From assembly GCA_947629755.1 (NCBI GenBank), contig CANREY010000014.1:1-38085 (forward strand): 38,085 nucleotides of DNA. The letters are read 5' to 3'. Source of the DNA: an uncultured Oscillospiraceae bacterium (GTDB lineage: Bacteria > Bacillota > Clostridia > Oscillospirales > Oscillospiraceae). The translations under genes were made by a program, and so were the position numbers. This document shows, one piece after another, positions 17,867 to 37,606 of this stretch. Position 1 is the stretch's first letter. Every line of letters starts with the position of its first letter. The notes beneath the pieces were generated by a model that ran no database searches, was not told the origin of the DNA, and saw only the letters and a list, made by a program, of their open reading frames with translations.

Positions 17867-19408
17867 TCAGCTCTCGCGGTAGTGCGCCCCGATGCTCTCA
17901 GTGCGGGCAAGGGCGGCGTCGATGATGGAAGCGGATATTATTGCAAGGCTCAGGTCCTCGTCGTACTCCCTTGAGCTTGAAAAGCCGGAGGAGAGCGTAT
18001 CGAGAATGTCCCGCATCTCGCGCTTCGCCGTCTCAAGGCCGTCCTTTGTGCGTATGACGAAGCAGTACTTGCTCATTATGTGTTGCATACGGGCCCTGAG
18101 TGCCTTGAAGTCCATATCGAGGGCGGGCCGCACGGGGAGGGCGGGCCAGAGCTCCTCGGAGCTTGAGAGGGCAGGGGAGAAGGACCTATTGATGTCCTCG
18201 GCGGCCCTGCGGCCAAATACAAGGCACTCAAGCATGGAGTTGGAGGCCAGCCTGTTTGCCCCGTGTACGCCGGTGGAGGCCGTCTCGCCGCAGGCGTACA
18301 GGCCGTGGACGGCCGTGCGGGCGTAGAGGTCCGTCTTGACGCCGCCCATCATGTAGTGGTGGACGGGGCAGACGGGGATATAGTCGCTGGAGATATTTAT
18401 GCCCCGGCGCATACACTCGTTATAAATGGTGGGGAAGCGCCGGGCCAGCTCCTCCTCAGGCTCGTGAGTTATGTCGATAAATACGTGGCTCTCGCCGCTT
18501 TTTTTCATCTCGTTATATATCCCGCGGGCCACTATGTCACGGGGAGCCAGCTCCGCAAGCTCGTGCTTGCCCACCATGAACCGCTCGCCCTTGGAGTTTT
18601 TGAGAAGGCCGCCCTCGCCCCGGACGGACTCGGAGATGAGAAACGCCCGGCTCTCCCTGTCCGGGGACCAGAGGCCAGTGGGGTGGAACTGGATAAACTC
18701 CATGCCCCGAAGCTCCGCCCCGGCGCGTATGGCCGCCGCCAGCCCGTCGCCGGTTGCCACGGCGGGGTTGGTGCTGGTCTCAAATACCTGCCCGATGCCG
18801 CCGGTGCAGAGGACTAAGTGCCGCGTGGCCACCGTCTCGTATTCACCGTCGTCGTCCTTCACCAAAAGGCCGGAGACGCCCTTTTCATCGGTGAGAATGT
18901 CCACAAAGAAGGTGTTGTCACGGAATATGATATTCTCCCGCTGGGAGGCGATGTAGGCGAGAGTCTTGACGGTCTCGCGGCCCGTGGCGTCGCCGCCGGC
19001 GTGGAGTATGCGGTTTTTGTGGTGTCCGCCCTCCCGTGTGAGGTCCAGCTCGCCGCTCTCGGTGAGGTCAAAGGGGACATTCATCTCTATGAGCTTTCTG
19101 ATGTCCATTGGCCCCTCGTCCACCAGCACGTGGACGGCCGCCTCGTCGCAAAGTCCCGCTCCGGCCACCAGCGTGTCCTTAAAGTGGAGCTCCGGGTCGT
19201 CGTCCGGGGCCGTCACGGCGGCAATGCCGCCTTGAGCAAGCCATGAGTTTGAGATGTCTATTGTCTCCTTGGCAAAGACACAGCATTTGAGGGAAGGGGA
19301 GAGGTTCAGGGCTGAGTATAGCCCCGCGATCCCTGCGCCCACGATGACAACATCGTAATTTGAGTGCCTTTTTGGCCTTATGGAGCCGTCAATGGCGTAA
19401 CGCATCAT
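17867..19408 (-). CDS. nadB: L-aspartate oxidase
   Basis: FAD enzyme that oxidises L-aspartate to iminoaspartate, the first step of de novo NAD synthesis. 513 aa. The N-terminal dinucleotide-binding GAGIAGLYSALNL is followed by SWLAQGGIAAV, the substrate loop GGHHKNRILHAGGDATG, FIQFHPTG, CPVHHYMMGGVKTD and GANRLASNSMLECLVFG, then the helical C-terminal domain. These residues separate NadB from succinate dehydrogenase flavoproteins only in part, but the adjacent nadC settles it. Two adjacent ATGs (19408 and 19405) are possible; AGAAGG lies about 9 nt upstream. nadA, the next enzyme, is not beside it, unlike many nadABC operons. Confidence 0.95.
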   Translation of the reverse strand: MMRYAIDGSIRPKRHSNYDVVIVGAGIAGLYSALNLSPSLKCCVFAKETIDISNSWLAQGGIAAVTAPDDDPELHFKDTLVAGAGLCDEAAVHVLVDEGPMDIRKLIEMNVPFDLTESGELDLTREGGHHKNRILHAGGDATGRETVKTLAYIASQRENIIFRDNTFFVDILTDEKGVSGLLVKDDDGEYETVATRHLVLCTGGIGQVFETSTNPAVATGDGLAAAIRAGAELRGMEFIQFHPTGLWSPDRESRAFLISESVRGEGGLLKNSKGERFMVGKHELAELAPRDIVARGIYNEMKKSGESHVFIDITHEPEEELARRFPTIYNECMRRGINISSDYIPVCPVHHYMMGGVKTDLYARTAVHGLYACGETASTGVHGANRLASNSMLECLVFGRRAAEDINRSFSPALSSSEELWPALPVRPALDMDFKALRARMQHIMSKYCFVIRTKDGLETAKREMRDILDTLSSGFSSSREYDEDLSLAIISASIIDAALARTESIGAHYRES

Positions 19409-23766: not shown

Positions 23767-24228
23767 GTGTTTGTCCTCTTTTTCGCGGTATGGGTGCTGT
23801 TGAACGGCAAGCTCAACTGGGAGATCGCCGCGTTCGGCGCGGTGATCTCGGCCGCGATATACTTTTTCTGCTGTAAGTTCATGCACTACTCGATAAAGCG
23901 GGATATTGACAATATCCGCAGACTTCCAAGGCTCCTCTCCCTCCTTGGCACGCTTCTCTGGGAGATATGCCGCTCGGCCTTTGCCCTTCTCCCCTACGTC
24001 TACGGCGGCAAAAGGCCGGACCCGCTGGTGGCGAGAATAAAACCTGAGGGTATAGACAGCGACACCGGCAGAGTATTTCTGGCAAATTGCATCACCATGA
24101 CGCCGGGGACCATAACCGGCAGTCTCAAGGACGGGGAGTATCTCGTCCACTGCCTCGACAGGGATCTTGCCGAGGGGCTTGAGGACAGCAGCTTTGTGAA
24201 AAAGATACGTCGATGGGAGGCGAAGTGA
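23767..24228 (+). CDS. mrpE: Cation/proton antiporter subunit E (MrpE/MbhA-like)
   Basis: A 153-aa MrpE/MnhE family membrane protein, first gene of the antiporter operon. N-terminal helices (FVLFFAVWVLLNGKLNWEIA, AVISAAIYFFCCKFM), a third near 55-75 (LPRLLSLLGTLLWEICRSAF), then a soluble C-terminal domain with the family pattern RVFLANCITMTPGTITGSL and DGEYLVHCLD. MrpE is a small accessory subunit at one end of the antiporter complex. GTG start at 23767 fixed by AAGGAGGCG at 23753-23761. The stop overlaps the mrpF start (TGATG), a sign of coupled translation. Confidence 0.9.
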   Translation: MFVLFFAVWVLLNGKLNWEIAAFGAVISAAIYFFCCKFMHYSIKRDIDNIRRLPRLLSLLGTLLWEICRSAFALLPYVYGGKRPDPLVARIKPEGIDSDTGRVFLANCITMTPGTITGSLKDGEYLVHCLDRDLAEGLEDSSFVKKIRRWEAK

Positions 24229-24572
24229 TGGACCCGATGGCTGTATTGGCTCCCCATGTGTTGACCGCGGCGACGGTCATACTGGCCGCCTGCGCCGTGG
24301 CGACGCTTTTCAGGACCCTCATCGGCCCTCGAATGTCCGACAGGATCGTGGGGGTCAACATGATAGGCACCCAGTCCATATGTATAATAGCCTGTCTCGT
24401 CCTAAGGCTCCGGGAGGACTGGATAGTGGACATCGCCATAGTCTACGCCATGTTCAGCTTTTTAGCCGTGGCGGTGCTGACTAAGATGGACATCGGCGTT
24501 TACCGCCAGTGGCGGGAAAATCAGAAGAAAAGCCGTGAGCGTTCAAACGGCGTAAGGAGGGACGGACAGTGA
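24228..24572 (+). CDS. mrpF: Cation/proton antiporter subunit F (MrpF/MbhB-like)
   Basis: A 114-aa protein with three helices: ATVILAACAVATLFRTLI, IGTQSICIIACLVL, and DIAIVYAMFSFLAVAVLTK. Family motif GPRMSDRIVGVN lies between helices 1 and 2. The ATG at 24228 overlaps the mrpE stop; an in-frame start at 24213 inside mrpE is less likely. The basic C-terminal tail is RSNGVRRDGQ. Confidence 0.9.
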   Translation: MDPMAVLAPHVLTAATVILAACAVATLFRTLIGPRMSDRIVGVNMIGTQSICIIACLVLRLREDWIVDIAIVYAMFSFLAVAVLTKMDIGVYRQWRENQKKSRERSNGVRRDGQ

Positions 24573-24979
24573 CAGGACAGTGGATACGCTTTATCTTCGG
24601 CACGGCATTTTTGGCGCTGGGGATATTCTTCATCGTCTCCTCCGTCGTTGGCAATTACAGATTTAAATTTGCCCTCAACCGTATGCACTCCGCCGCCCTT
24701 GGCGACACCATGGGCCTTGCGGGGATAGTTGCCGGCATGTGCTTTTATCACGGCCTCAACGCCGCCACGGTGAAGCTCCTTGTCATCGTGGCGCTGGTGT
24801 GGGTCACGAGCCCCGTGGCCAGCCACCTCATAATGCTCATGGAGCTCACAAGCGGAAAATACAAGGCCGAGGCCCACGAGGAGAGCTCCGATGAGCAGGG
24901 ATTGGAGCTATACTCGGTGGATATGCAGCGCGACGCCATGAGGCGCTACGACAGCGACAGGAAGGAGGAAGATAAATGA
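24569..24979 (+). CDS. mrpG: Cation/proton antiporter subunit G (MrpG/MbhC-like)
   Basis: A 136-aa protein with three helices (GTAFLALGIFFIVSSVVG; TMGLAGIVAGMCFYHG; LLVIVALVWVTSPVASHLI). The family signature RMHSAALGDTMG follows the first helix. GTG start overlaps the mrpF stop (GTGA). The hydrophilic C terminus from about 95 is acidic and longer than in most MrpG proteins. Confidence 0.9.
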   Translation: MTGQWIRFIFGTAFLALGIFFIVSSVVGNYRFKFALNRMHSAALGDTMGLAGIVAGMCFYHGLNAATVKLLVIVALVWVTSPVASHLIMLMELTSGKYKAEAHEESSDEQGLELYSVDMQRDAMRRYDSDRKEEDK

Positions 24980-25254
24980 CACTTCTTGACGGGATACTTC
25001 TTACCTTTCTCATAATCTGCGCCGTGGCCGTGTCGGTAAAGAGAAATCTTCTGGCCTCCATTGTGATCTACATGGGCTTCTCCCTCATAATGTCCGTTAT
25101 CTGGCTTACGCTTGAAGCGCCTGACCTTGCCATAACCGAGGCCGCCGTGGGCGCGGGAGTTACGGGGCTCCTCTTTTTGGCCACCCTTAAGAAGATACAC
25201 GCCATAAAGGCCGATGACGTCAGGGACAGGGAGGATAAGCCGGATGAAAAGTGA
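24976..25254 (+). CDS. MbhD-like (DUF4040) antiporter subunit
   Basis: A 92-aa, three-helix protein with the DUF4040 core IYMGFSLIMSVIWLTLEAPD and ITEAAVGAGVTGLLFLATL. In standard Mrp systems this segment is part of the C-terminal region of MrpA; in archaeal Mbh/Mbs it is the separate subunit MbhD. Here it is separate. ATG 24976 overlaps the mrpG stop (ATGA). Confidence 0.88.
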   Translation: MTLLDGILLTFLIICAVAVSVKRNLLASIVIYMGFSLIMSVIWLTLEAPDLAITEAAVGAGVTGLLFLATLKKIHAIKADDVRDREDKPDEK

Positions 25255-26215
25255 CGGTTTTTTCTCAAAGCTCACGAAGTTCGTGGAATACGGCTCTCTC
25301 CGCGAGGAGGACCTTACCCTCTCCCCTTCCAAAAAGCAAAAATTCGTGGACACGGACTCACCTGAGAACAGGTGGCTCACCACGGTGCAAAACAGCGAAA
25401 AGCCCCTTGCCGCCCGTATCGCCACATGGGTATCCCACTACGGCGTGTCCCTTTTTGACAGGCTCTACCGCGTCGCGGCGGCCTTTATCTGCTTTACGCT
25501 CATCGGCCTTCTCCTCTCGGTCGTGGCCTTCCTGCCGGCCTTCGGCGACGAGAACGCCCCGGCTGTCAACGAGGTGGTGGAGCGGTACGTCTCAAAGTCC
25601 GTTGAGGAGACTGGCACCACCAACGCCGTGGCGGGTATGATCTCCGCCTACCGCGGATTTGACACCCTTGGCGAGGCCCACGTGCTGTTCGCCGCGGCCT
25701 GCAGTGTCATTATCCTCCTTAGAGTCGACGATCCTGAGCGCCGGCACGGGAGGCTCGTGGACCCGGTCATGACCGGTGAGGACATGGATTTTGAGCCCAA
25801 CAGCGACCTTGTACTGCGCAAGGCGGCGAAAATACTTGTTCCCCTCTCCTTCATCTTCGGCCTCTATGTCATTTTAAACGGCACCACCTCCCCCGGCGGC
25901 GGCTTTTCCGGCGGGGCCCTCATGGGCGCGGGGCTCATACTTACCTCCGTGGCCTTCGGCTTTGGGCGGACGGAGCGGTTTTTTGGCGACGAGATGTACC
26001 ACCTTGTGAAGACCGCGTGCCTCGCCGCCTACGCGCTGATGATGGCCTACTTTATCTACATGGGAGCCAACGGCCTTCCTGACGGCGTGTGGCTGGGTAT
26101 CCCCGGCAGTATCATAAGCGGCGGGCTCATACTGCCCATAAACATCGCTGTTGGCTTCGAGGTGGCCTGCACTATGTACTGCTTCTACGCCCTTTTCCGC
26201 AAAGGAGGCCTTTGA
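25244..26215 (+). CDS. mrpB: Fused MbhE-like + MrpB antiporter subunit
   Basis: A 323-aa protein combining two usual subunits. Residues 1-75 are hydrophilic and unassigned. Residues about 77-160 hold a helix (VAAAFICFTLIGLLLSVVAFL), an extracellular stretch, and YRGFDTLGEAHVLFAAACSVI, the signature of MbhE or the MrpA C-terminal end. Residues about 185-323 are MrpB/MbhF: LVPLSFIFGLYVILNGTTSP followed by GGGFSGGALMGAG, then three more helices. ATG 25244 has GGAGGATAAG upstream (25231-25240) and overlaps the previous stop by 11 nt. The fusion explains how a complex without MrpA keeps the MrpA C-terminal modules. Confidence 0.85.
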   Translation: MKSDGFFSKLTKFVEYGSLREEDLTLSPSKKQKFVDTDSPENRWLTTVQNSEKPLAARIATWVSHYGVSLFDRLYRVAAAFICFTLIGLLLSVVAFLPAFGDENAPAVNEVVERYVSKSVEETGTTNAVAGMISAYRGFDTLGEAHVLFAAACSVIILLRVDDPERRHGRLVDPVMTGEDMDFEPNSDLVLRKAAKILVPLSFIFGLYVILNGTTSPGGGFSGGALMGAGLILTSVAFGFGRTERFFGDEMYHLVKTACLAAYALMMAYFIYMGANGLPDGVWLGIPGSIISGGLILPINIAVGFEVACTMYCFYALFRKGGL

Positions 26216-26216
26216 T

Positions 26217-26600
26217 ATGCCGGAGTTTTTGAAAAATCTCTTTACGAATTACTACGAGACCGGCGCCGTCATACTTTTCGGCATCGGCTTCACTACCCTT
26301 CTGATGCACCGAAATCTTCTCAAGAAGATAATCGGCTTAAACTTCATGGACTCCGGCCTCTACCTCTTTCTCGCCGCCAAGGGCTATATCGCGGGCAGGC
26401 TCGCACCAATCATCACGAACGGCGACACCGATCCCACAAAGTACGTAAATCCAATCCCCACGGGCCTTGTGCTCACGGGCATCGTTGTATCCGTGTCCGT
26501 CACTGCCTTTTTGCTGGCGCTGACGTGCAGGCTCTATGATAAATTCCACACACTGGACATCGACGAGATCACGTACCTTGCCCGAAAGGAGCGGGAGTGA
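26217..26600 (+). CDS. mrpC: Cation/proton antiporter subunit C (MrpC/MbhG, NuoK-like)
   Basis: A 127-aa NuoK-type protein with three helices: AVILFGIGFTTLLMHRNLLK, NFMDSGLYLFLAAKGY, and PTGLVLTGIVVSVSVTAFLL. The conserved Pro-containing motif before helix 3 reads NPIPTGLVLTGIVV, where most MrpC have DPLPQALVLTAIVI. AAAGGAGG at 26201-26208 fixes ATG 26217, 1 nt after the mrpB stop. Confidence 0.88.
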   Translation: MPEFLKNLFTNYYETGAVILFGIGFTTLLMHRNLLKKIIGLNFMDSGLYLFLAAKGYIAGRLAPIITNGDTDPTKYVNPIPTGLVLTGIVVSVSVTAFLLALTCRLYDKFHTLDIDEITYLARKERE

Positions 26601-28093
26601 TGGACCTTGTTCAAAATTTTCCGTTTCTGACCATAGTCTTCAGCCTGACCTGCGGGGTGCTCTGCGCCGTATTGCGCCCCAAGGCCGCAAAAAATCTCTG
26701 CCTTACGTGGCTCACGCTGACCTTCGCCATGAGCCTTTCTGTGCTCATTTATACATTGCGTCTTGACGGCAGCTTCGTCTACCGCATGGGCAAGTGGAAC
26801 GCCCCCTGGGGCAATGAGATACGGGTCGGCCCACTGGAGGCACTGATGGCCACGGCCTTCTCCGGCGTCATGCTCCTCTCCCTTCTTGGCGGCATGGGGC
26901 ACATCTTCTCAGACTGCGAGGAGGGCAAGGTGAACCTCTACTTCACCATGTCCTCGCTTCTCATAAGCTCCCTTTTCGCCCTCATTTACACAAACGACCT
27001 TTTCACCGCCTACGTGTTCGTGGAGATAAACACCATCGCCTCCTGCGCCCTCGTCATGCTGAAAAGCTCAGGCCGGACGCTGGTAGCCACCACGAAATAC
27101 CTCATAATGAGCCTTTTGGGGTCGGGACTTTTTCTCTTGGGCATCGTGATACTCTACGGCATCACCGGCGAGCTTCTGATGGAGAGCATCGCCGTGAAGG
27201 TGAGGGAGATATTCGCTACCGGCGAGTACTCCCTGCCCCTCACGGTGGTTATCGGGTTTTTCTCCGTGGGCCTCGCGGTAAAAAGCGCCCTTTTCCCCTT
27301 CCACTCATGGCTTCCCGACGCCCACGGTAGCGCCACGGCCTCCTCCAGCGCCATACTCTCAGGTCTGGTGCTCAAGGGGTACATCATCGTACTTATAAAG
27401 GTATTTTACCGCGTATTCGGCCTTCGGGTCATAATGGCGGAGAGGGTCTCGAATTTCCTCTTTATCTTCGGTATCCTCGCCATGATATTCGGCTCCGTGG
27501 GGGCCCTGAGGGAGCGGGATATAAAGCGTATGCTGGCCTACTCCTCCGTGGCCCAGGTGGGCTATATTTACGTGGGCATCGGCACCCACTCCGAGGCCGG
27601 CATGGTGGCCGCCTGCGTGCAGATACTGGCCCACTGCGTCACAAAGCCAATGCTTTTCTGCGCCGCCGGAGGCTTTATGGACGTGTCGAACGGCAAAAAG
27701 GCTATGACGGACATAAAGGGCGCGGGGCGGCGTGATAAGATAGCCGGCGCGGCCTTCACCGTTGGGGCTCTCTCCATGGTGGGTATCCCCTTCTTCGCGG
27801 GATTTGTGACGAAGCTCACCCTGACCCAGGCCGCCGTAAGCTCCGACAACATAAGAATGGTCATCGCCCTCGCGGCCGTGGCCGTGAGTACGCTTCTTAA
27901 CGCCCTATACTATATCCCCGTTATTTTCAACATCTTTTCAAAAACCGAAAGCACCGGCATCAAAACGGAGCGTCCCAGGGCGGACCACGCCTTCGCCCTT
28001 TGCGTTTTCATGCTCCTCAACGTGTGCTTTGGCGTATTTTCTCAGGAGCTTGTGGACACGGTCCGCCGCGGCCTTGAGCTTTTCGGAATGTAG
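26600..28093 (+). CDS. mrpD: Antiporter-like pump subunit 1 (MrpD/MbhH, NuoM/N-like)
   Basis: A 497-aa polytopic protein of the proton-conducting Complex I antiporter family. It keeps the ion-translocating pair: Glu142 on helix 5 (AYVFVEINTIA) and Lys228 on helix 7 (GLAVKSALFPFHSWLPDAHG), plus the helix-8 Lys in SGLVLKGYIIVLIK. Central KRMLAYSSVAQVGYIYVG and C-terminal GIPFFAGFVTK are family hallmarks. ATG 26600 overlaps the mrpC stop (TGATG); GTG 26597 is an alternative. AAAGGAGCG lies upstream. Its place directly after MrpC matches MrpD in Mrp and MbhH in Mbh. Confidence 0.9.
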   Translation: MDLVQNFPFLTIVFSLTCGVLCAVLRPKAAKNLCLTWLTLTFAMSLSVLIYTLRLDGSFVYRMGKWNAPWGNEIRVGPLEALMATAFSGVMLLSLLGGMGHIFSDCEEGKVNLYFTMSSLLISSLFALIYTNDLFTAYVFVEINTIASCALVMLKSSGRTLVATTKYLIMSLLGSGLFLLGIVILYGITGELLMESIAVKVREIFATGEYSLPLTVVIGFFSVGLAVKSALFPFHSWLPDAHGSATASSSAILSGLVLKGYIIVLIKVFYRVFGLRVIMAERVSNFLFIFGILAMIFGSVGALRERDIKRMLAYSSVAQVGYIYVGIGTHSEAGMVAACVQILAHCVTKPMLFCAAGGFMDVSNGKKAMTDIKGAGRRDKIAGAAFTVGALSMVGIPFFAGFVTKLTLTQAAVSSDNIRMVIALAAVAVSTLLNALYYIPVIFNIFSKTESTGIKTERPRADHAFALCVFMLLNVCFGVFSQELVDTVRRGLELFGM

Positions 28094-28102
28094 GAGGCGC
28101 GT

Positions 28103-29578
28103 ATGGACGGAAATTATCTCATGCTAATACCGATCCTCCTGCCCGTGGCCGGGGCGCTGACGCTCAATGCAAAGGCACTTAAGGCGCCCGGCCCCCGGAG
28201 ATTTTTCGTTACCGGCTGCCTCGTGGCCGAGCTCATTTTCTCGGCTGTCTGCGCCGCCGCGGTCGACGGAGAAATAACGGTCCTGACCGTAACGCCTGAG
28301 CTCTACGTATTTTTAAGGCTCGACGGACTTGGAAGGCTCTTTTCCCTCCTCGTGGCCTTCATGTGGCTCATGTCCGGGCTTTTCTCCCGTGAGTATATGG
28401 CCCACGATAAGGACGAGGGGCGCTACTACGCCTTCCTGCTCCTCTCAGAGGGGGCCCTTGAGACGCTGTGCTTCGCGGGAAATTACATGACGCTCTATCT
28501 TGGCTTTGAGCTCATGACACTGCTCTCCACCCCCCTCGCCCTCCACACCCGGACGGAGGGGGCGAGGCGCGGCGGTATGAAATATCTCCTCTACTCCGTA
28601 TTCGGCGCGTGTCTTGGACTTCTGGGCTTTTTCGTGCTTCACTCATTCGGCGTGACCACGGACTTCACCCCCGGCGGCGTCATCGACCCGGCAAAGCTTA
28701 CGGGACACGAGGGCCTTGTGCTCACAGCCGCCTTTTTGGCGGTGCTGGGCTTCGGGGCCAAGGCCGGCATGTTCCCCCTCCACGCATGGCTCCCCGCCGC
28801 CCACCCGGAGGCCCCGGCAGGGGCCTCGGCGCTGATGTCCGGCGTCATAACAAAGGCAGGGGTACTCAGCATCATAAGGGTCGTATATTACGGGTTCGGC
28901 GTAAAGCTTCTCCGTGGGACATGGGTACAGTACGCGTGGCTTTCCCTTACGCTTATCACCGTCTTTCTCGGCTCCATGCTGGCCTATAAGGAGAAAATAT
29001 TCAAAAAGCGCCTTGCCTACTCCACCGTAAGTCAGGTCTCCTATATCCTTTTCGGCCTCGCCCTGATGACCCCGGAGGCCTTCACCGGAGCCATACTCCA
29101 CGTGGTCGTCCACTCCGCCATAAAAAACGCCCTCTTTTTCACAGCCGGCGCCGTCATACTGAAGACCGGGAAAAAGGACGTCCGGGAGCTTCGCGGCATC
29201 GGCAAGGAGATGCCTGTCACAATGTGGTGCTTCACGCTCTGCTCCCTTGGCCTTGTGGGCATACCGCCCTTGGGGGGCTTTGTGAGCAAGTGGTACCTCG
29301 CCATGGGCTCCCTCGGCTCCGGCATACCCGTCTTCTCATGGCTTGGGCCGGTCATACTTCTTGTAAGCGCCCTTCTGACCGCCGGGTATCTCTTCTCCAT
29401 CACCGTCCGGGCCTTTCTGCCGGGAGCCGATTTTGACTACGCCAGCGTACAGAAAAGAGAGCCCACTGTCTGGATACTCATTCCCCTTGCGCTCCTGACG
29501 GCGCTTACGTTTTTGACCGGTATTTTACCGGGCCCAATAACCGAGATCGCCGCTCAGGCGGCGGGGCTCATTTTCTGA
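28103..29578 (+). CDS. Antiporter-like pump subunit 2 (NuoL/M/N-like)
   Basis: A 491-aa member of the same family with Glu136 (LYLGFELMTLLS) and Lys220 (GFGAKAGMFPLHAWLPAAHP), followed by VITKAGVLSIIRVVYYGF, KRLAYSTVSQVSYILFG and GIPPLGGFVSKWYLA. All residues expected for a working channel are present. GGAGG at 28093-28097; 9-nt gap after the previous gene. Closest by pattern to NuoM/NuoN or the L-type subunit of Mbs/Mrp-like complexes; a single-letter assignment is not safe. Confidence 0.88.
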   Translation: MDGNYLMLIPILLPVAGALTLNAKALKAPGPRRFFVTGCLVAELIFSAVCAAAVDGEITVLTVTPELYVFLRLDGLGRLFSLLVAFMWLMSGLFSREYMAHDKDEGRYYAFLLLSEGALETLCFAGNYMTLYLGFELMTLLSTPLALHTRTEGARRGGMKYLLYSVFGACLGLLGFFVLHSFGVTTDFTPGGVIDPAKLTGHEGLVLTAAFLAVLGFGAKAGMFPLHAWLPAAHPEAPAGASALMSGVITKAGVLSIIRVVYYGFGVKLLRGTWVQYAWLSLTLITVFLGSMLAYKEKIFKKRLAYSTVSQVSYILFGLALMTPEAFTGAILHVVVHSAIKNALFFTAGAVILKTGKKDVRELRGIGKEMPVTMWCFTLCSLGLVGIPPLGGFVSKWYLAMGSLGSGIPVFSWLGPVILLVSALLTAGYLFSITVRAFLPGADFDYASVQKREPTVWILIPLALLTALTFLTGILPGPITEIAAQAAGLIF

Positions 29579-29591
29579 AGGGAGGCGCCAC

Positions 29592-31061
29592 ATGAAAATT
29601 CTTATGCTGATTGCCGTGTTCCTCCCCATAATCGCGGGAGCCGCCCTTCCCCTATTCAAATTCAAAAACCGCCGCCACCGCGAGCTCTACGTCCTCGCCG
29701 CCGTGTGCGTAACGTCTGTAACCGTCCTGACGCTCCTACTAAACGCCCCCGTGAGCGCCTTAAAGCTCGTCTCCTTAACGGCGACTCTCCATATCACCCT
29801 GAGGCTTGACGGCCTTTCCGGCGTATTCTCCGGCCTTGTGGCGTTTTTGTGGCCCCTTGCCAGCGTCTATGCCTTTGAGTATATTAAGCACGAGGGCGGG
29901 GACGACAAATTTTTCGCCTTCTACACCGTGACCTACGGCGTGACGCTCGGCATCGCCATGAGCGCAAATCTTATTACGCTATACCTGTTCTATGAGCTCC
30001 TCACCCTTGTGACGCTCCCGCTGGTGACCCACTCCGGGGACCGGCGGTCCGTGAGAGCGGGCATAAAGTATCTGGCCTACTCCATCGGCGGCGCGGCCTG
30101 CGCCTTCGCGGGAATGATGATACTCTACGCCTACGGCTCTACGTCCCTTGACTTTGTGTACGGCGGCTTTGTCAGCGCCGATACTCAGCGCCGGACGCTC
30201 ATGCTTATAGCGTATCTTCTCTGCTTTTTTGGCTTCGGCGTAAAGGCCGCCATTTTCCCCTTCCACTCCTGGCTCCCCTCAGCCGGTGTGGCCCCAACTC
30301 CGGTGACAGCGCTGCTGCACGCCGTGGCGGTGGTCAAGGCCGGTGCCTTCGCCATAGCGCGGGTGACCTTTTACTGCTTCGGCGTCTCCCTTCTCTACGG
30401 CACATGGGCCCAAGGCGCGGCCATGGGCTTTGCCGTGCTCACCATTGTATTCGGCTCCGCCATGGCCCTTCGGGAACAGCACCTCAAAAGGCGGCTTGCC
30501 TACTCCACCGTCAGCAATTTAAGCTACATCGTCTTCGGCGTGACGCTGATGACACCGGCGGGGCTCACCGGGGCATTGAGCCACATGGTCTTTCACGGCG
30601 TCATGAAGATAACGCTCTTTTTCTGCGCCGGGGCCATAATGTACATGACCCACCGGGAGTTTGTGCCGGAGCTCACGGGCCTCGGCAAATATATGCCCGT
30701 GACCTTCGCGGCCTTCACATTGGCCTCCGCCGCCCTTGTGGGCGTTCCCCTGCTCCCCGGCTTTATAAGCAAGTGGAGCCTCGCCACCGCCGCCATTGCC
30801 GAGGGCGGGGCGTTGCCCATTGCCGGCGTCGCGGCGCTTTTAATATCTGCCGTGCTCACCGCCGCCTACCTTCTCACCACCGTAGTCAACGCCTTTTTCC
30901 CCCCGGCGGGACAGGGCGGCCACGGGCTGGAGCTTGCGAAAGACCCCAATATGTACATGAAGCTCCCCTTTTTCGTCCTGATGCTTGCCATGCTTGCCCT
31001 CGGCATGGGGTCCGGGGGACTTATGGAGCTTCTGTCCCGCGTGGCCGCGGGCGCTATTTAA
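29592..31061 (+). CDS. Antiporter-like pump subunit 3 (NuoL/M/N-like)
   Basis: A 489-aa family member with Glu135 (LYLFYELLTLVT) and Lys218 (GFGVKAAIFPFHSWLPSAG), then VAVVKAGAFAIARVTFY, KRRLAYSTVSNLSYIVFG and GVPLLPGFISKWSLA. Similar in length and layout to the gene before it, so the two may be a duplication within the operon. GGGAGG at 29580-29584 precedes ATG. Confidence 0.88.
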   Translation: MKILMLIAVFLPIIAGAALPLFKFKNRRHRELYVLAAVCVTSVTVLTLLLNAPVSALKLVSLTATLHITLRLDGLSGVFSGLVAFLWPLASVYAFEYIKHEGGDDKFFAFYTVTYGVTLGIAMSANLITLYLFYELLTLVTLPLVTHSGDRRSVRAGIKYLAYSIGGAACAFAGMMILYAYGSTSLDFVYGGFVSADTQRRTLMLIAYLLCFFGFGVKAAIFPFHSWLPSAGVAPTPVTALLHAVAVVKAGAFAIARVTFYCFGVSLLYGTWAQGAAMGFAVLTIVFGSAMALREQHLKRRLAYSTVSNLSYIVFGVTLMTPAGLTGALSHMVFHGVMKITLFFCAGAIMYMTHREFVPELTGLGKYMPVTFAAFTLASAALVGVPLLPGFISKWSLATAAIAEGGALPIAGVAALLISAVLTAAYLLTTVVNAFFPPAGQGGHGLELAKDPNMYMKLPFFVLMLAMLALGMGSGGLMELLSRVAAGAI

Positions 31062-31073
31062 GGAGGCCGTAAA

Positions 31074-33062
31074 ATGAGTGACTACATTCTTCTTCTCCCC
31101 GTCCTCCTGCCAATGACAGGCGCTTTCGCCTCCTTCATACTTGGCCGTCACAGCAAAAAAGCCCGCGATATTTTTGCCGATACCGTCGGCGCGCTGGAAT
31201 TTCTCATCTGCGCCGGACTTTTGATTTTTTCGGCCTCCGGCCGGGAGCTCTCCCTTTCCGTAAAATATATCTGCGGCCTTGGCATCACCTTCAGGCTTGA
31301 CGGCTTCAGGGCCGTCTACTGCCTTATCGCCTCGCTTATGTGGCTGATGACCACGGTATTTTCAAACGAGTACCTCGCCCATTACAGGAACCGCAACAGG
31401 TACTACCTCTTTACGCTCCTCACCTGCGGGGCCACAGTCGGGGTATTCCTGTCCAACGACCTTTTCACCACCTTCATCTTCTTTGAGATCATGTCCTTCA
31501 CCTCCTACGTCATGGTGGTTCAGGACGAAAAGCCCGGAGCCATGCGGGCCGGTGAGACATACATCGCCGTGGCGGTCATCGGCGGCATGGTGATGCTCAT
31601 GGGCCTCTTTCTCCTTGAAAACAGGCTTGGGACCCTTAGCTTTGATGAGCTCAGATTTGCCGTTGAGGCTCTGCCTGACAGATCCGCCCTCTACCTGCCC
31701 GGAGCCCTCATTTTAACGGGCTTCGGCGCCAAGGCCGGCATGTTCCCCCTCCACATCTGGCTGCCCAAGGCCCACCCGGTGGCCCCCGCCCCCGCCTCGG
31801 CGCTCCTGTCCGGTATCCTCACAAAGGCCGGTGTCTTCGGCGTGCTTGTTCTGACATCAAGGGTATTTCTCCACGACGGCCTCTGGGGCAACGTGATCTT
31901 AGCCCTCGGCACGGTGACCATGATCCTTGGCGCTGTGCTGGCCGTATTCTCCGTGGACTTAAAGCGCACCCTCGCCTGCTCCTCCATGTCCCAGATAGGC
32001 TTTATCCTTGTAGGCGTCGGTATGCAGGGACTGCTGGGCAACGATAACACCTTGGCCCTATGGGGCACGGGGCTTCACATGGTGAACCACTCCCTCATAA
32101 AGCTCGTTCTTTTCATGTGCGCCGGGGTGGTGTACATGAACACCCATGAGCTTGATTTGAATAAAATCCGTGGCTGGGGGCGGAACAAGCCCCTTCTCAA
32201 CGTCTGCTTCCTCATGGGCGCTCTCGGCATCGCCGGCGTGCCATTGTGGAACGGCTACGTCAGCAAGACGCTCCTGCACGAGTCAATCGTTGAGTTTACC
32301 GCCCTCGCCGGGTCCGGCGCGTGGATATACAAAACGGTCGAATGGCTCTTTCTCATATCCGGCGGCCTCACGGTGGCGTACATGACCAAGCTCTACGTGG
32401 CCATATTCGTGGAAAAACCGGAAAAACCAATTGAAAAAAAACCGTACATGAGCTTAAAGTCCGCTCTCGCCATCGCTATCCCCGCCCTCGCCTTGCCTAT
32501 TATGGGTATGCTCCCCTCACGTATCATGGCAAGCGCCGCGCGTCTCATGGAAAGCTTCATGGACCCCACCCTCGTGTGGCGTGATACCCAACACACCGCT
32601 GTACAGTGGTTCTCACTTGAAAACCTCAAGGGCGCCCTCATATCCATATCCATCGGCGCGGCGGTATACCTGTTCATTATCCGTCCCCTGCTTACCCGCC
32701 GTGACGGGAGCGGAAAGCGATATTATGTAAACCTCTGGCCGGCAAAGCTCGATTTGGAGGAGCTTGTCTACCGCCCGATTGTTGAAAAGGCCCTCCCCTT
32801 CCTTGGCGCGCTTGTTTGCAGGATACTTGATAACCTCACCGACTGGCTCACGGCGGCCCTCACCCACACGCTCCTCCGCCAGAAGCCAATCCCGCCCAGA
32901 GTCGACGAGGACTATGAGCCCGGCGACTTCGCCTCCAACCCCCACCAGAGCCGCACCTACCAGCGCATCTCCGGCAGTATCTCATATAGCCTCCTCCTCT
33001 ACGGCTTCGGCTTCTGCGCCGCGATGGTCTACCTCGTCATTATTCTGATAATGAGGTATTGA
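31074..33062 (+). CDS. Antiporter-like pump subunit 4, long NuoL/HyfB-like form
   Basis: A 662-aa family member with Glu138 (TFIFFEIMSFTS) and Lys220 (GFGAKAGMFPLHIWLPKAHP), GILTKAGVFGVLVLTSRVFL, LKRTLACSSMSQIGFILVG and GVPLWNGYVSKTLL. After the usual core it has about 200 extra residues: two helices (KSALAIAIPALALPIMGML; LKGALISISIGAAVYLFII), an amphipathic stretch YVNLWPAKLDLEELVYRP with following helices, and a final membrane helix (LLLYGFGFCAAMVYLVIILI). NuoL, HyfB and EchA-type subunits also carry C-terminal extensions that run along the membrane arm. AAGGAGG just upstream. Last gene before the terminator; no hydrogenase genes follow. Confidence 0.88.
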   Translation: MSDYILLLPVLLPMTGAFASFILGRHSKKARDIFADTVGALEFLICAGLLIFSASGRELSLSVKYICGLGITFRLDGFRAVYCLIASLMWLMTTVFSNEYLAHYRNRNRYYLFTLLTCGATVGVFLSNDLFTTFIFFEIMSFTSYVMVVQDEKPGAMRAGETYIAVAVIGGMVMLMGLFLLENRLGTLSFDELRFAVEALPDRSALYLPGALILTGFGAKAGMFPLHIWLPKAHPVAPAPASALLSGILTKAGVFGVLVLTSRVFLHDGLWGNVILALGTVTMILGAVLAVFSVDLKRTLACSSMSQIGFILVGVGMQGLLGNDNTLALWGTGLHMVNHSLIKLVLFMCAGVVYMNTHELDLNKIRGWGRNKPLLNVCFLMGALGIAGVPLWNGYVSKTLLHESIVEFTALAGSGAWIYKTVEWLFLISGGLTVAYMTKLYVAIFVEKPEKPIEKKPYMSLKSALAIAIPALALPIMGMLPSRIMASAARLMESFMDPTLVWRDTQHTAVQWFSLENLKGALISISIGAAVYLFIIRPLLTRRDGSGKRYYVNLWPAKLDLEELVYRPIVEKALPFLGALVCRILDNLTDWLTAALTHTLLRQKPIPPRVDEDYEPGDFASNPHQSRTYQRISGSISYSLLLYGFGFCAAMVYLVIILIMRY

Positions 33063-33076
33063 GCTAAGTAAATACA

Positions 33077-33126
33077 AAACCGCTCAGAAAAGCATTTTCG
33101 CCTTTCTGAGCGGTTTCGCTTTTATT
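33077..33126 (+). terminator. Terminator of the antiporter operon, probably bidirectional
   Basis: Perfect 14-bp stem AAACCGCTCAGAAA (33077-33090) / TTTCTGAGCGGTTT (33103-33116), followed on the plus strand by CGCTTTTATTT. It sits between the convergent antiporter operon and the cotJC-like gene. Confidence 0.85.
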
Positions 33127-33724
33127 TATCGAACGACGGGTTCATGAAGTAGACGTTCTTCTGGTCCAGCTTCTCCAAGGTCTTGCCAAGGGCCTCGCCG
33201 AAGCGCTGGAAGTGGACGACCTCGCGCTCACGCAAAAAGCGTATGACGTTGTTTACGTCCGGGTCGTCGGACAAGCGTAAAATATTGTCGTAGGTTGTGC
33301 GGGCCTTCTGCTCCGCGCCCATGTCCTCGGTGAGGTCGGTGATCGTATCGCCCTTCACGCCTATCGTCGCCGCGGTCCATGGCGTGCCGGAGGCGAACTG
33401 GGGATATATCCCGGCTGTGTGATCCACGAAGTACGTCTCAAAGCCGGCCTTCTTGATCTCCTCCATGGACATGTCACGGGTAAGCTGATGTACGATGGAC
33501 GCCACCATCTCAAAGTGCCCCAGCTCCTCAACGCCGATGTCGGTCAGAAGCCCCCGGAGCTCCGGGTAGGGCATGGAGTAGCGCTGGCTTAAATACCTCA
33601 GCGACGCGCCAAGCTCGCCGTCAGGTCCTCCTGACACCGGTAGACTATTATAGGGGGGTATCACCTCCTCGGTAACACCCTGCTCTCCCCGAACTTCGGC
33701 AGCACCAAGCGGCCATTTTCCCAC
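33122..33724 (-). CDS. cotJC: CotJC-like manganese catalase, native 5' end missing
   Basis: The sequence from GGPDGELGAS onward (plus-strand position 33631 down) is a typical CotJC/manganese-catalase four-helix bundle. In the longest frame (GTG 33724) the metal ligands are E37 (DGEL), E67 and H70 (EELGH), E138 (GAEQKA) and H171 (EREVVHF); it ends NPSFDK like many Clostridia CotJC. The first ~31 residues do not look like CotJC, whose N terminus (about 30 aa, MWIYEKKLQYP-type) is absent; that part is read out of frame through the end of the phage gene. No ribosome binding site fits a start near the homologous part; GTG 33637 is possible. cotJA and cotJB are also absent. Spore coat/peroxide defence role if expressed. 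Confidence 0.75.
   Translation of the reverse strand: MGKWPLGAAEVRGEQGVTEEVIPPYNSLPVSGGPDGELGASLRYLSQRYSMPYPELRGLLTDIGVEELGHFEMVASIVHQLTRDMSMEEIKKAGFETYFVDHTAGIYPQFASGTPWTAATIGVKGDTITDLTEDMGAEQKARTTYDNILRLSDDPDVNNVIRFLREREVVHFQRFGEALGKTLEKLDQKNVYFMNPSFDK
33647..33675 (-). promoter_or_regulatory. Possible promoter at the phage/cotJC junction
   Basis: Minus strand TTACCG (33675-33670), 17-bp spacer, TATAAT (33652-33647). GTG 33637 lies 10 nt beyond the -10, so a transcript would be nearly leaderless. The -35 is weak and the match may be chance. Confidence 0.25.
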
Positions 33725-35973
33725 TTGGCCCCGCTCTTTTCCTCCTGCTCCTCGGTCCCGCTCCCCTTTTGTTCCTGTCGGTTCTTTTCAGTCTCCCTGC
33801 GCTCCTTCTCGGTTTGTACAGCATCATAGACCCTTTGTCCAGCACGGGCATCAAAGGGATTAGAAGTCGGCGTATAGCTCGAATTGGCCAGTTGATACAA
33901 TACGGCTTTCATCTCTTTAGAGATACTAAGCTTGGAAATTGCGCTTATTACCTCATCTTTTTTGACGCTTCCGTCGCCATCGGCGTCCGCGCGAATCACG
34001 CCGTTGTAGTAATTGTCCATGCTGATGCCGTAGCTCTTAGCCGTTTTCATTTTGAACGCCGTCATATCATCCTTCCCGTAAAGCAACTCCATCGCCTTTA
34101 TTTTTTCATCCTCAGTAAGCTTTGAGGTAAGGACCGCTCCTCGCTTCTCTACTGCTTTTTCGGCTGTGGAATACTCCATCAGCATCTTCAACAGCTTCCC
34201 CGAATTTTCACCGACCATCTCAGCCATCTCGTTAATGACCTCCCGCTCCTTGTCGGAGGCGATAAGCGCGTAGTAGGGAATGATTTTGATATTCTCCGGG
34301 ATAGAGGACGCTTTCAGCAGGTCGATTTTATTCTCCTTCTCCGACTTGTCCTCAGTCTTCACCGCCGCTCGAAGCGCGAGTACCAGCGTGTTGGCATCGC
34401 TCCCCCTTACGCCGGCCGCGGTCAGTCCCTGGTATGCGCCGGTCTCAAGGGCGCTGTAATTACGAAATCCGCTGTCCATCCAACTTTGGGCATTAGCGCC
34501 GGACGTCTTACCGAAAAGCGCCCCGCCTACATACGCGCCCACCTTCTCGCCCAAAGTATCTGTGTACACGGGATATTGCATGATGTCGCGTCCCTTATTG
34601 TCCACAGTGTAGCTGCCGCCCTTTATGGCCGCCTCTACTCCCTGGAGGATCTTCTTCATCTGCCCGCCGCCGAAGGGGAGCAAAATGTATGTGAGCGGCT
34701 TTCCGACTTCTTTTATTGCCGTTTGTAGCCTTTTCTTTGCGGACCAATCATTGTCCTTTGAAAACGCCTTTCCGATATTCCCAATATTAGGGATAGCGCT
34801 TTCGACCGACAGACGGCCCGCATCGATGTCCAGTCCGAGCGTATCGTCCAACCCCAGAGCTCCTACGACGCCCATAAAGGGCAGCTGATCCGCCACGTTG
34901 CTTATAAGCCCGCTCACCGCTCCGCCTTTTTGCGTCTTGAATGAGGGCACATTCCCGGTGACCACTCCCTTTGCGAGGCTCACCATGTTTGGGAGCTCAT
35001 AGCCCGTCAGGTCTCCCACCGTGTCGTTGATGATACCGATGGGGTCCAGTGCCGGACGCCGCCCGATAAAGTACTCATACACCTCATCGTAGAGCCACGC
35101 CCCCAGAGCGAATTTAAACAGCGCCAACGCCAGCGCGCCCAGCCCCTTCTCCCGAAGTCCCCGCGGCATGTCCTTGAATACGTATCCGAGCTGGTTGTTC
35201 ACTTCGAGTTGGAATTGAGTAAACAGCTTCGTCAGCGGACTTGACCGGTTAAAAAGAGTCGGCGTGGAGCCCTTACTTCTGTCGGCCATGACGCCGGCCA
35301 CCCAGTTATCGGCCTCCTCCATCGCGGCCTGTTCGCTCATTTGCCGGTTTTGTACGTTCTGCCTGTACCGGGCCCGCACAAGGGAATCCGCCGTGAAATT
35401 ATCTATCCATTCCATGGGACTTGACAGCTTCGCCGACGCGCTTTGTTGCCATGTCCTCACCAGCGGGTCCGACCCGCGCCGGTTTGTAAGGAAAGTACTC
35501 ATATTTACAAAGCCGTCGTCGGTCTTGATTGCCTTAAGCGTATCCCACATTCCATGGATCAACATACCCCCATCCAGCATCGCCCCGCCCTGGGTGAGCG
35601 GAATGAAGTTTGTCAGCCATGAGGCCGGGTTTACCGCCACCATGTTCGCCGCTATGCGCCCCTCAATGGCTTTTACCCTGTTGTACATATCGCGCCCCAG
35701 CGCCTGCTCCATGTTCCTGTCGGCTCGGCTTTTCTTGTTGGCCAGGATATTCGTGTACTCCTCCAGATCCACCACGTAGTTACTCAGGGCGTATCTGCCA
35801 TTCTCGTAGATGTCCTTTATGCGGTTTTCCTTGTCCTGCTCCGCGAGAGACGCGTCCGCTCTTATTTCGTCGACCTGACGTCTCAATCCCTCATCGCCGG
35901 TCCTGTATCTGATTTGCGAAGCCAGTGCCCGGAGCCTTTGGATATTCTCTGTCTGGTAAATGACGTCGGCCAC
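33661..35973 (-). CDS. C-terminal fragment of a large polyvalent phage protein
   Basis: 770 aa from GTG 35973. Motifs typical of phage large polyvalent proteins (LPD38-like region): MVAVNPASWLTNFIPLTQGG, SPLTKLFTQFQLEVNNQLGY, and many amphipathic or hydrophobic segments (ALALALFKFALGAWLYDEVY). Near the C terminus, residues 663-674 form an EF-hand-like DADGDGSVKKDE. The tail is charged (EKERRETEKNRQEQ). Such proteins are usually far longer and injected with phage DNA. Coding-like sequence continues in frame upstream of GTG 35973 (EYDAVEGFDKYIEG) to a stop at 36025-36027, with no good start codon, so the N-terminal part appears deleted. The last codons overlap an AGGAGGTGAT motif. Confidence 0.65.
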   Translation of the reverse strand: MADVIYQTENIQRLRALASQIRYRTGDEGLRRQVDEIRADASLAEQDKENRIKDIYENGRYALSNYVVDLEEYTNILANKKSRADRNMEQALGRDMYNRVKAIEGRIAANMVAVNPASWLTNFIPLTQGGAMLDGGMLIHGMWDTLKAIKTDDGFVNMSTFLTNRRGSDPLVRTWQQSASAKLSSPMEWIDNFTADSLVRARYRQNVQNRQMSEQAAMEEADNWVAGVMADRSKGSTPTLFNRSSPLTKLFTQFQLEVNNQLGYVFKDMPRGLREKGLGALALALFKFALGAWLYDEVYEYFIGRRPALDPIGIINDTVGDLTGYELPNMVSLAKGVVTGNVPSFKTQKGGAVSGLISNVADQLPFMGVVGALGLDDTLGLDIDAGRLSVESAIPNIGNIGKAFSKDNDWSAKKRLQTAIKEVGKPLTYILLPFGGGQMKKILQGVEAAIKGGSYTVDNKGRDIMQYPVYTDTLGEKVGAYVGGALFGKTSGANAQSWMDSGFRNYSALETGAYQGLTAAGVRGSDANTLVLALRAAVKTEDKSEKENKIDLLKASSIPENIKIIPYYALIASDKEREVINEMAEMVGENSGKLLKMLMEYSTAEKAVEKRGAVLTSKLTEDEKIKAMELLYGKDDMTAFKMKTAKSYGISMDNYYNGVIRADADGDGSVKKDEVISAISKLSISKEMKAVLYQLANSSYTPTSNPFDARAGQRVYDAVQTEKERRETEKNRQEQKGSGTEEQEEKSGAKWENGRLVLPKFGESRVLPRR

Positions 35974-36019
35974 GCCCTCTATGTACTTATCAAAGCCCTC
36001 TACGGCGTCGTATTCGGTG

Positions 36020-37333
36020 TCATCTCACACCCTCCAATGCTTTTAGTCTTTTATCGAACTCCCGCGCCTTCGCCCAGACGATCCCTATAAATTCCTCGTG
36101 CCTGAGCAAATATATCGGGTTGCTGTCCTCGTCCACGTCCGCCACATAGCCGCCGAACTCCGTAGAATCTATTCCCAGTGCGTCCATAGCCGCCTTGACG
36201 CTTTGGGCGATAAAGCCCACGTGGTAGCGGCCTGACGTCCCGTCGTTGTACTTAAACCTCACTGGCTCAAGTATGTCTATCATATCAGCGTACTTGTCCG
36301 GCAAAGGCTCAATATCGTGCTTGCGGTTGCGGTCAGACACGGTTATCGAGGAGGACGTAGAGTATATGGTCCCCCATGGCAGAGCCGCCGTGCCCAGCGT
36401 TTCCCGATTTCCGGCCACGAGGGGACCAAGCCCGATCTGTATCCTGTCATCATTAAGTGTGAGGGTCGTGCCGTAGATGTCCGGGTTGCCGCTCCACTTG
36501 TTAAGGGTATATGATGCCAAAAACAGATTGCCGTTGGCGCATACCCTCATACCGCTTGTGGACCACAGCCCAACGCCGGTACCCGTTGTTGTGGGTTGCA
36601 CCTCTAAATATCCGGATATAAGGCCGGAGTCTCCCGATACAAAGTTTATTTGCTCGCCATAGAGGCTCTTAGCCGCCACCACCGCCGAGGTCACCATGCC
36701 GCCGTCTATGCAGGTCCTGCCGTCTACGACCGTCTTCCAGTTGTCTAAAATCCCCTCTACCGTGGTGACTCTCCCCTGTGCGTCTGAGCCCAGATCCTCC
36801 CACGTGATGGCCCCGGTCAGGGCAAGGCTCCCCTTGCTTATGGTGACACTGTTTCCCTCGGCGTCATATACGGTCATACCGTCCGAGCCCAGCCTCAGCG
36901 TATGGCTCATGCCGGTATTCAAATCCGTCACGCTGGCCGACAGCTCCTCGGCAGTGGTTGTCAGCTCCGTCAGGCTCCCCTCCGCGCTTTCCATCCGAGT
37001 ACGGAGCGTATCCGCGGTTGATATGACGGTGGTCAGGTCCCCCTCGGCGTTTGAAAGCCGCAAGTCTATTCCCTCGGCGGTGACAGCCAGCTCCGTAGCA
37101 AATTTCTCGTCCACGTCCTCGATCGCCATGTATACCGGGTCTCTTATGAGCTTCGCCAGTGTGTCAAGCTCCGTGCTGTTGAAATTGTCTACCCCCAGAT
37201 TTCCAAAGGAATACTTCAGCTGTTCCTGAAGGAGACGGAGGTAATTTAATATGTCCCGGTTTATCTGCTCCTGATTTTTCCCGCGCGTTTGCGGAAAGTA
37301 TATATCCGTATCCAACAAATTCCCCGGCATCAT
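36020..37333 (-). CDS. Phage tail fibre/receptor-binding protein with peptidase S74 chaperone domain
   Basis: 437 aa. The N terminus (LDTDIYFPQTRGKNQEQINRD) is a typical adaptor to the tail; residues about 75-160 are a helical trimeric coiled-coil-like region (ELAVTAEGIDLRL, TTAEELSASVTDL); a beta-rich middle follows (GSLALTGAITWEDLG, GTTLTLNDDRIQIG). The C-terminal ~100 residues are an S74 intramolecular chaperone: SDRNRKHDIEPLP with the Ser-Asp cleavage pattern, FKYNDGTSGRYHVGFIAQSV, and a final coiled coil (AKAREFDKRLKALEG). The chaperone trimerises and then cleaves itself off. Two ATGs (37333 and 37330) follow AAAGGAGG; either fits. Confidence 0.85.
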   Translation of the reverse strand: MMPGNLLDTDIYFPQTRGKNQEQINRDILNYLRLLQEQLKYSFGNLGVDNFNSTELDTLAKLIRDPVYMAIEDVDEKFATELAVTAEGIDLRLSNAEGDLTTVISTADTLRTRMESAEGSLTELTTTAEELSASVTDLNTGMSHTLRLGSDGMTVYDAEGNSVTISKGSLALTGAITWEDLGSDAQGRVTTVEGILDNWKTVVDGRTCIDGGMVTSAVVAAKSLYGEQINFVSGDSGLISGYLEVQPTTTGTGVGLWSTSGMRVCANGNLFLASYTLNKWSGNPDIYGTTLTLNDDRIQIGLGPLVAGNRETLGTAALPWGTIYSTSSSITVSDRNRKHDIEPLPDKYADMIDILEPVRFKYNDGTSGRYHVGFIAQSVKAAMDALGIDSTEFGGYVADVDEDSNPIYLLRHEEFIGIVWAKAREFDKRLKALEGVR

Positions 37334-37606
37334 CGCCGCCTCCTTTCATTTGATTTCCTTCCTCTTTGCCCTCTCCCTTTGGAGAAATGGGGCGTAGGGG
37401 CCGATGCCCACATCGGCCCGACGCACCAATTTGACCTCCGGCCAAAATCGACGCTTTATACGATGTTGCGCTTTAACGGGGCGTTGCAATATCGGAACAC
37501 GGGCCGATGTGGGCATCGGCCCCTACGGGTGCGCTTTTTACGGCCCCCAATTCCCCGCGCCTTCCGCCCCTCCCTTGGGAGGGGGTAGGGGGTGGGGCGT
37601 CGTGCG
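37334..37606. other. Intergenic region with REP-like element
   Basis: 273 bp between the tail fibre and endolysin genes with no credible gene. It holds the 27-bp inverted repeat pair (37394-37526) and a further palindrome CCCCTCCC-TT-GGGAGGGG at 37567-37584. Confidence 0.6.
37394..37526. repeat. REP/MITE-like element with 27-bp perfect inverted ends
   Basis: Positions 37394-37420 and 37500-37526 are perfect 27-bp inverted copies. Each arm is itself a hairpin: GGCCGATG-CCCA-CATCGGCC. The 79-bp middle has no gene. Palindromes of this GGCCGATGTGGGCATCGGCC kind look like dispersed bacterial repeats; a transposase-mobilised MITE or a BIME-like REP pair are the two options. Confidence 0.7.

Follow-up and report, generated by a model that had tools for sequence, protein, structure and literature searches.

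What kind of complex is encoded by a row of ten membrane-protein genes that has the gene order of the Mbh hydrogenases, four pump subunits and no redox gene behind it? The question is raised by positions 23767-33062 of contig C14 from an uncultured Oscillospiraceae bacterium, the assembly of which measures 2.2 Mb in 130 contigs and is 97.5% complete; the window is the whole stretch of that contig analysed here (38,085 nucleotides). The answer that we favour, with good confidence and from family assignments, is that these genes probably encode a cation/proton antiporter of Mrp group 3, stand-alone and enlarged to four proton-channel subunits from the usual two, and not a new type of respiratory complex. 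The assignment to group 3 is made because the Mrp small subunits E, F, G, B and C are present (each over its Pfam cut-off), a full-length MrpA gene is not, the MrpD-type pumps are several, and no redox module was found. The genes are:

23767-24228, plus strand: MrpE (MbhA-type), 153 amino acids, GTG start (PF01899, 1.4e-22)
24213-24572, plus strand: MrpF (MbhB-type), 119 amino acids (PF04066, 6.7e-13)
24569-24979, plus strand: MrpG (MbhC-type), 136 amino acids (PF03334, 8.5e-19)
24976-25254, plus strand: MbhD, first part of the MrpA C-terminal region, 92 amino acids (PF13244, 1.5e-20)
25244-26215 (open reading frame, ORF, from 25214), plus strand: fusion of MbhE and MrpB, 323 amino acids (PF20501 and PF04039)
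26217-26600, plus strand: MrpC (MbhG/NuoK-type), 127 amino acids (PF00420, 1.4e-20)
26597-28093, plus strand: pump 1, antiporter-like subunit in the MrpD position, 498 amino acids (PF00361, 9.9e-59)
28103-29578, plus strand: pump 2, first copy of a duplicated middle pump, 491 amino acids (PF00361, 3.9e-55)
29592-31061, plus strand: pump 3, second copy of the duplicated middle pump, 489 amino acids (PF00361, 3.8e-54)
31074-33062, plus strand: pump 4, distal subunit of MrpA-N/NuoL type, 662 amino acids (PF00361, 2.1e-57)

The ten ORFs are all co-directional, neighbours overlapping by at most 16 bp or lying at most 13 bp apart, and every frame was assigned to an Mrp/Mbh family by Pfam and NCBIfam; refinement of the starts moved that of the fusion to 25244 and that of MrpC to 26217. 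Along the operon the Pfam order is MNHE, MrpF_PhaF, PhaG_MnhG_YufB, MbhD, the MbhE+MnhB fusion, Oxidored_q2, and four times Proton_antipo_M. A sequence-only reading of this DNA had described ten overlapping or near-abutting genes in the order E-F-G-DUF4040-(MbhE+MrpB)-C-D followed by three more pumps, and the ORF map and Pfam bear this out. Its contrast between an Mbh-type order and canonical Mrp overlooked the group 3 Mrp class, which is without mrpA and may have several mrpD (PMC8415708).

The ten-gene operon is real and conserved as a unit beyond chance, as confirmed by its relatives. Scanning named genomes with alignment A1 gave at least 545 relatives, of which the best 80 were kept, a sample biased to close relatives; the exact order was found in 64 of these 80 best-matching loci (63 by another pattern, pump 3 of L099 being in two pieces), and the remaining 16, all at contig ends, are incomplete. 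By their titles the 80 loci belong mostly to Lachnospiraceae, Oscillospiraceae or Clostridia, with one metagenome-assembled genome (MAG) titled Muribaculum; among them are Hungatella hathewayi, Schaedlerella arabinosiphila, Fusibacillus kribbianus, Butyricicoccus pullicaecorum and MAGs from rabbit gut. No conserved neighbour gene within three ORFs on either side was common to more than 10 loci; the commonest flanking family (10 loci) is trmB-like by reading. In a second search, 245 genomes of the same taxonomic order were queried with the fusion protein, 31 matched, and the 21 strongest (E ≤3.8e-27) are called carriers below. The complete order is seen in ten loci of these (the window, L035, L036, L038, L039, L042, L044, L045, L047 and L048); nine of the other 11 are interrupted by contig ends or stretch ends, and L037, in which pump 4 is split over two ORFs, starts at a contig end. 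At the last, L043 (genome G069), mrpEFG were not seen beside the remaining genes, despite 8.6 kb of upstream sequence.

Key residues of the small subunits are conserved. MrpE has P113 in 75/76 and H128 in 76/76 aligned orthologues, MrpG has D46 in 72/72 and P82 in 71/72, and E55 of MbhD is conserved in 78/78. D43 of MrpF, present in 76/76, may be read as the counterpart of D35 in the Na+ path of MrpF (PMC7419157). In the fusion protein D140 and E144 are invariant across 13 aligned sequences, and its profile matches, among PDB structures, subunit E of MBS, MbhE, MbhF, MrpB and the C-terminus of MrpA; the top PDB match of MrpC is subunit G of MBS (2.1e-23), with D45 in 80/80 orthologues. MrpA was earlier called absent, and indeed no single large gene was found: the longest pump (662 amino acids) is without an MbhD or MbhE domain, these two being encoded apart, and TIGR00940 at E ≤1e-150 gave no match in genome G000. 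MrpA is nonetheless split, not missing, its parts being encoded as separate genes, pump 4 with the MrpA/NuoL fold and MbhD plus MbhE as its C-terminal part.

All four pumps have the Glu/Lys pair of antiporter-like subunits on transmembrane helices (TM) 5 and 7, at E143/K229, E136/K220, E135/K218 and E138/K220 for pumps 1 to 4; the presence of these pairs had been recognized before, with pump 1 misnumbered as E142/K228. The TM5 Glu and TM7 Lys are invariant in the aligned orthologues, the TM8 and TM12 positions are likewise occupied by Lys in every pump of the window, and in pump 1 the set E143, K229, K260 and K406 occurs in 76/76. An AlphaFold2 model of pump 4 (mean pLDDT 89) predicts the MrpA/NuoL fold, in which the 14-TM core is followed by TM15 (helix 515-540) and an amphipathic lateral helix (561-599). 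The structural alignment extends to residue 586 with MrpA and to about 608-616 with NuoL, ending before a further helix at 638-661, a candidate TM16 the surrounding residues of which have low confidence. Beyond the residue-425 position, nine ten-gene rows have a tail of 238-290 amino acids and fourteen three-pump rows one of 171-357; the two-pump L219 has 153 and NuoL of Escherichia coli 197. We had considered whether this length in the last pump would prove that it reaches across all the others, and dropped the idea for want of a clean relation to pump number.

The addition of three NuoL/M/N-like genes, noted earlier, is upheld by the four PF00361 proteins. In a pump tree (FastTree; 130 sequences, 482 columns; proteins of ≤300 amino acids or ≤60 bits excluded) pumps 2 and 3 are sister clades (support 0.999) and together adjoin the middle pump of Peptoclostridium and of L220 (0.938); pump 1 of Peptoclostridium groups with pump 1 (0.999) and its pump 3 with pump 4 (0.913). 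The third pump of haloarchaea and of L216 is placed elsewhere, and the MrpA N-terminal part of canonical Mrp branches apart from pump 4; the deeper branching is weak, and no inference was drawn from deep nodes. From these placements the operon is therefore read as a Peptoclostridium-like three-pump Mrp that would have gained a duplicated middle pump and an MbhE-MrpB fusion. Stand-alone relatives beyond the order, for which 60 wider-phylum stretches were taken as a subset of the matches, share the small-subunit genes but vary in pump number, the counts being minima where a stretch ends: two pumps (e.g. L219), three (e.g. L050, L156, L216-L218, L222-L229 and L232, and the named plasmid examples of Peptoclostridium, two haloarchaea and Rhizobium rosettiformans), four (L220, L231, L243), five (L215, L241, L259) and seven (L265). 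Rearranged Mrp clusters occur at L259:6331-16857 and L265:1-13831, where MrpB-C-pump-E-F-G-MbhD-MbhE is followed by four or six extra pump genes, giving totals of five and seven (L265 is cut at the stretch end). L214 (genome G352) has the fusion and pumps 1, 2 and 4 but lacks pump 3.

It had been left undecided whether the operon is a stand-alone multi-channel Na+/H+ antiporter or the membrane arm of a modular respiratory complex, docking a hydrogenase-like or complex-I-like redox module encoded elsewhere. The latter idea draws on the Mbh gene order and on relatives that do have such parts. Within the same taxonomic order, 19/245 genomes have PF00146 (NuoH-like), which we take to be the family of the membrane anchor in modules of complex-I and group-4 hydrogenase type; in eight of the 19 (G013, G125, G194, G046, G080, G093, G106 and G134) it lies within about 3.4 kb of a weaker match to the fusion protein, and the four such loci examined (L051, L052, L206, L207) are Mbh-like operons that combine a single pump with NuoH-, NuoB- and ferredoxin-like genes. 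In the wider phylum L256, L260 and L269 join Mrp small subunits and two pumps to NuoH-, NuoB-, NuoCD- and ferredoxin-like genes, and are Mbx/Mbs-like by reading. Against docking, neither PF00146 nor PF01058 (NuoB-like) was found in any of the 21 carriers, the completeness of which ranges down to 72%, and comparison genome G125 was positive for PF01058 in the same search. Nor did the stretches around the 80 named loci, where a redox module was sought near the operon, contain any ORF similar to nine redox query proteins. The window's own genome is nearly complete, as stated, and PF00361 is confined in it to the four operon pumps, so that no complex I, Ech or second Mrp was seen there. Because the NuoH- and NuoB-like families were not found in the carriers, docking is unsupported for modules of the complex-I, Mbh and Ech types, and with a NuoH-type anchor it is largely refuted already; we consider the modular respiratory complex very improbable, and the stand-alone antiporter fits these absences. 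An anticorrelation between operon and NuoH (0/21 carriers against 19/224 other genomes) was also considered; it is not significant alone (about 0.15 by chance, an estimate), and only the absence was used.

A softer form of redox docking, a functional pairing with the Rnf ferredoxin:NAD pump, does have some support. In 12 genomes from eight families, among the 60 wider-phylum stretches, rnfC-D-(G)-E-A-B immediately precedes a two- or three-pump mrp cluster on the same strand (L217, L222, L223, L232, L234, L239, L246, L248, L251, L255, L258, L271), the distance from rnfB to mrpE by ORF ends ranging from a 4-bp overlap (L258) to 661 bp (L232); an RnfG-like ORF was detected in only 3/12 of these loci, and the RnfB-like ORF of L251 is short. 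Within the same order, rnf is divergently adjacent to the ten-gene operon in L042 and L044. Of 58 stand-alone loci for which 5.5 kb or more of upstream sequence is available, 14 have rnf adjacent, 21/79 having been excluded (redox module present, mrpE not found, or less than 5.5 kb upstream); the 58 are loci, a few genomes contributing two. With one or two rnf sites per 2-3 Mb genome, we estimate that chance would give less than about 1%. Co-occurrence with hydrogenase-, Ech- or Rnf-like genes, raised earlier as a check, came out positive for Rnf (RnfD, PF03116, in 18/21 carriers) and negative for the NuoH- and NuoB-like families.

These neighbourhoods suggest a link between Mrp and Rnf, and a pairing of the two was proposed earlier for Methanosarcina acetivorans (PMC3160891). 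In its strongest form the multi-pump Mrp would be a dedicated Rnf partner, a functional and perhaps physical unit in which ferredoxin oxidation sets a Na+ gradient that Mrp re-gears into a proton gradient. The recurrent adjacency and the frequency of Rnf in the carriers speak for it; Rnf is, however, near universal in the order anyway (222/245 genomes), RnfD was undetected in three carriers (G099, G205 and G215, 77-88% complete), and no RnfD-like ORF was found in the window or in any of the 80 named ten-gene loci, the upstream extent of which varies. We regard a dedicated partnership as possible but not as the expected outcome. The recurrent rnf-mrp neighbourhood offers in any case a concrete hypothesis for the exchange of Na+ and proton gradients in some Clostridia.

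How might the enlarged antiporter work? MrpE, F and G with MbhD, MbhE, MrpB and MrpC would make up the Na+ path, pump 1 would take the MrpD position beside MrpC, the duplicated pumps 2 and 3 would lengthen the pump row, and pump 4 would end it in the MrpA-N/NuoL position with its lateral helix bracing the array. Dissipation of one ion gradient would then drive the other: Na+ would move along the ladder of small subunits and protons, in exchange, through as many as four coupled half-channel units. The cellular role would most likely be to interconvert the proton gradient with the Na+ gradient that Rnf makes and that a Na+-type ATP synthase perhaps uses, which may help an acid-producing anaerobe of the gut to keep its pH and Na+ in balance. 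In the same genome, the c subunit of the F-type ATP synthase (L233:1462-1707) has the two-carboxylate Na+-site pattern and carries the residues of the Fusobacterium rotor Na+ site. A single complex with all four pumps, its direction of transport, stoichiometry and physiological role are what we infer from the genes.

Several points weigh against this account. Why a secondary antiporter should need four proton units is not obvious, and the operon is known here from its genes, from which the single four-pump complex is postulated. The top structural Z of pump 4 is to MrpD, over the core only, and the last pump's C-terminal tail shows no clean increase in length with the number of pumps. In MrpC the His ligands of the Bacillus type are replaced (Asp45, Tyr49), and the TM8 Lys of pump 3 is not kept in 95% of orthologues, so details may differ. 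As to the cellular role, the Na+ reading of the ATP synthase is one motif, which the rotor paper cited for it reports in other bacteria too; besides the lack of RnfD-like ORFs at the named loci just mentioned, the ten-gene operon stands beside rnf in only 2/12 order-type loci with sufficient upstream sequence (11 and the window). It might also be that the antiporter includes only one or two of the pumps, the others forming a separate complex or condition-dependent alternatives; relatives have from one to four or more pump genes, so that an Mrp cluster can persist without having four. All four pumps are kept in the 64 complete loci, however, with the TM5 and TM7 residues invariant, they lie in one overlapping or abutting gene row, and a single related locus (L214) is without pump 3, which makes such a division unlikely in our view.

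A bolder and decidedly speculative idea, which we would not expect to hold, is that multi-pump Mrp are variable-gear Na+/H+ transformers in which pump number sets the H+:Na+ ratio, and which in some Clostridia form one ferredoxin-driven unit with Rnf. Were it true, the gear would range from one pump in Pyrococcus furiosus to two to four or more here, and the attached antiporter would re-gear the ion currency of Rnf. Why complex I and Mrp have several near-identical pumps is a standing question, and these clusters form a natural series, with the same small-subunit ladder, differing pump numbers and no electron transfer, in which an effect on the ion ratio would be measurable in vesicles.

The surroundings of the operon in the window are of other kinds. 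About 60 bp past it, at 33122-38085 on the minus strand, lies a phage-like stretch with, in order, an ORF matching Mn catalase (PF05067, phrog_7573), a 770-amino-acid ORF without match and a tail-fibre gene; no redox gene was found 3' of the operon within the window, in agreement with the earlier statement that no redox subunit follows. Four close relatives (L035, L073, L074, L075) have different genes 3' of the operon. A GH120-insert/beta-helix protein is encoded at 14982-16946, and neighbouring genes for a quinolinate phosphoribosyltransferase (17021-17854) and an FAD-dependent oxidoreductase (17867-19408) resemble nadC and nadB. No Rfam family or riboswitch was found in the window at gathering score.

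Among the nearest known systems is the group 3 Mrp of P. furiosus (mrpEFGBB'CD), which has the same order, no single large MrpA and no redox module, and shares with the ten-gene operon conserved Na+ and H+ paths (PMC8415708); this stand-alone Mrp is reported to use Na+ and to be important when the medium becomes acid. It differs in having one MrpD and no subunit of MrpA-N type, whereas the operon has four pumps, the last of MrpA-N/NuoL type, and the MbhE+MrpB fusion. Three-pump Mrp clusters (Peptoclostridium acidaminophilum plasmid EAL2_808p, two haloarchaeal plasmids, R. rosettiformans p4) follow the same small-subunit order, fused in various ways, and in Peptoclostridium each pump is sister to the corresponding pump of the operon; they have a single middle pump in place of two, the haloarchaeal third pump belongs to another clade and is without the TM7 Lys, and the Rhizobium third pump is without the TM5 Glu. 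Canonical Mrp of groups 1 and 2 covers the same seven functions if MrpA is equated with pump 4, MbhD and MbhE, but has the pump and MbhE-like parts in one MrpA gene, then B-C-D-E-F-G with one MrpD (L201, L202, L205). The Mbh, Mbs and Mbx complexes share the small-subunit order and the position of pump 1; unlike in these, a NuoH-like anchor and a NuoB-like subunit were not found in the 21 carriers, nor a large-subunit-like ORF near the 80 loci.

Irregular Mrp clusters with duplicated subunits have been published (PMC5703873), and three-pump clusters are mentioned in passing: 'MrpEFGBBBCD, MrpDD' for Unc8 (PMC6305446), and an mrpD followed by two NuoM/NuoL-like genes in Ca. Nitrospira alkalitolerans (PMC7784846). 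In the portions consulted of the open-licence literature on Mrp, Rnf, complex I and ATP synthase, neither a ten-gene operon with four pumps nor an rnf-mrp cluster on one strand was found described. By analogy, a four-pump Mrp would parallel complex I with an added NuoM: the 2M complex I of Nitrospira and the five-pump complex I of Manganitrophaceae likewise have one or more extra middle pumps and a distal pump with a lateral helix, but they carry a redox arm and an insert of about 26 residues in the lateral helix that is tied to the extra pump (PMC9040806), whereas the operon has no clean relation of tail length to pump number. With the group 3 class, duplications and three-pump clusters known, what appears new within that literature is an Mrp of four pumps whose middle subunit is duplicated and which gut Clostridia conserve as one unit.

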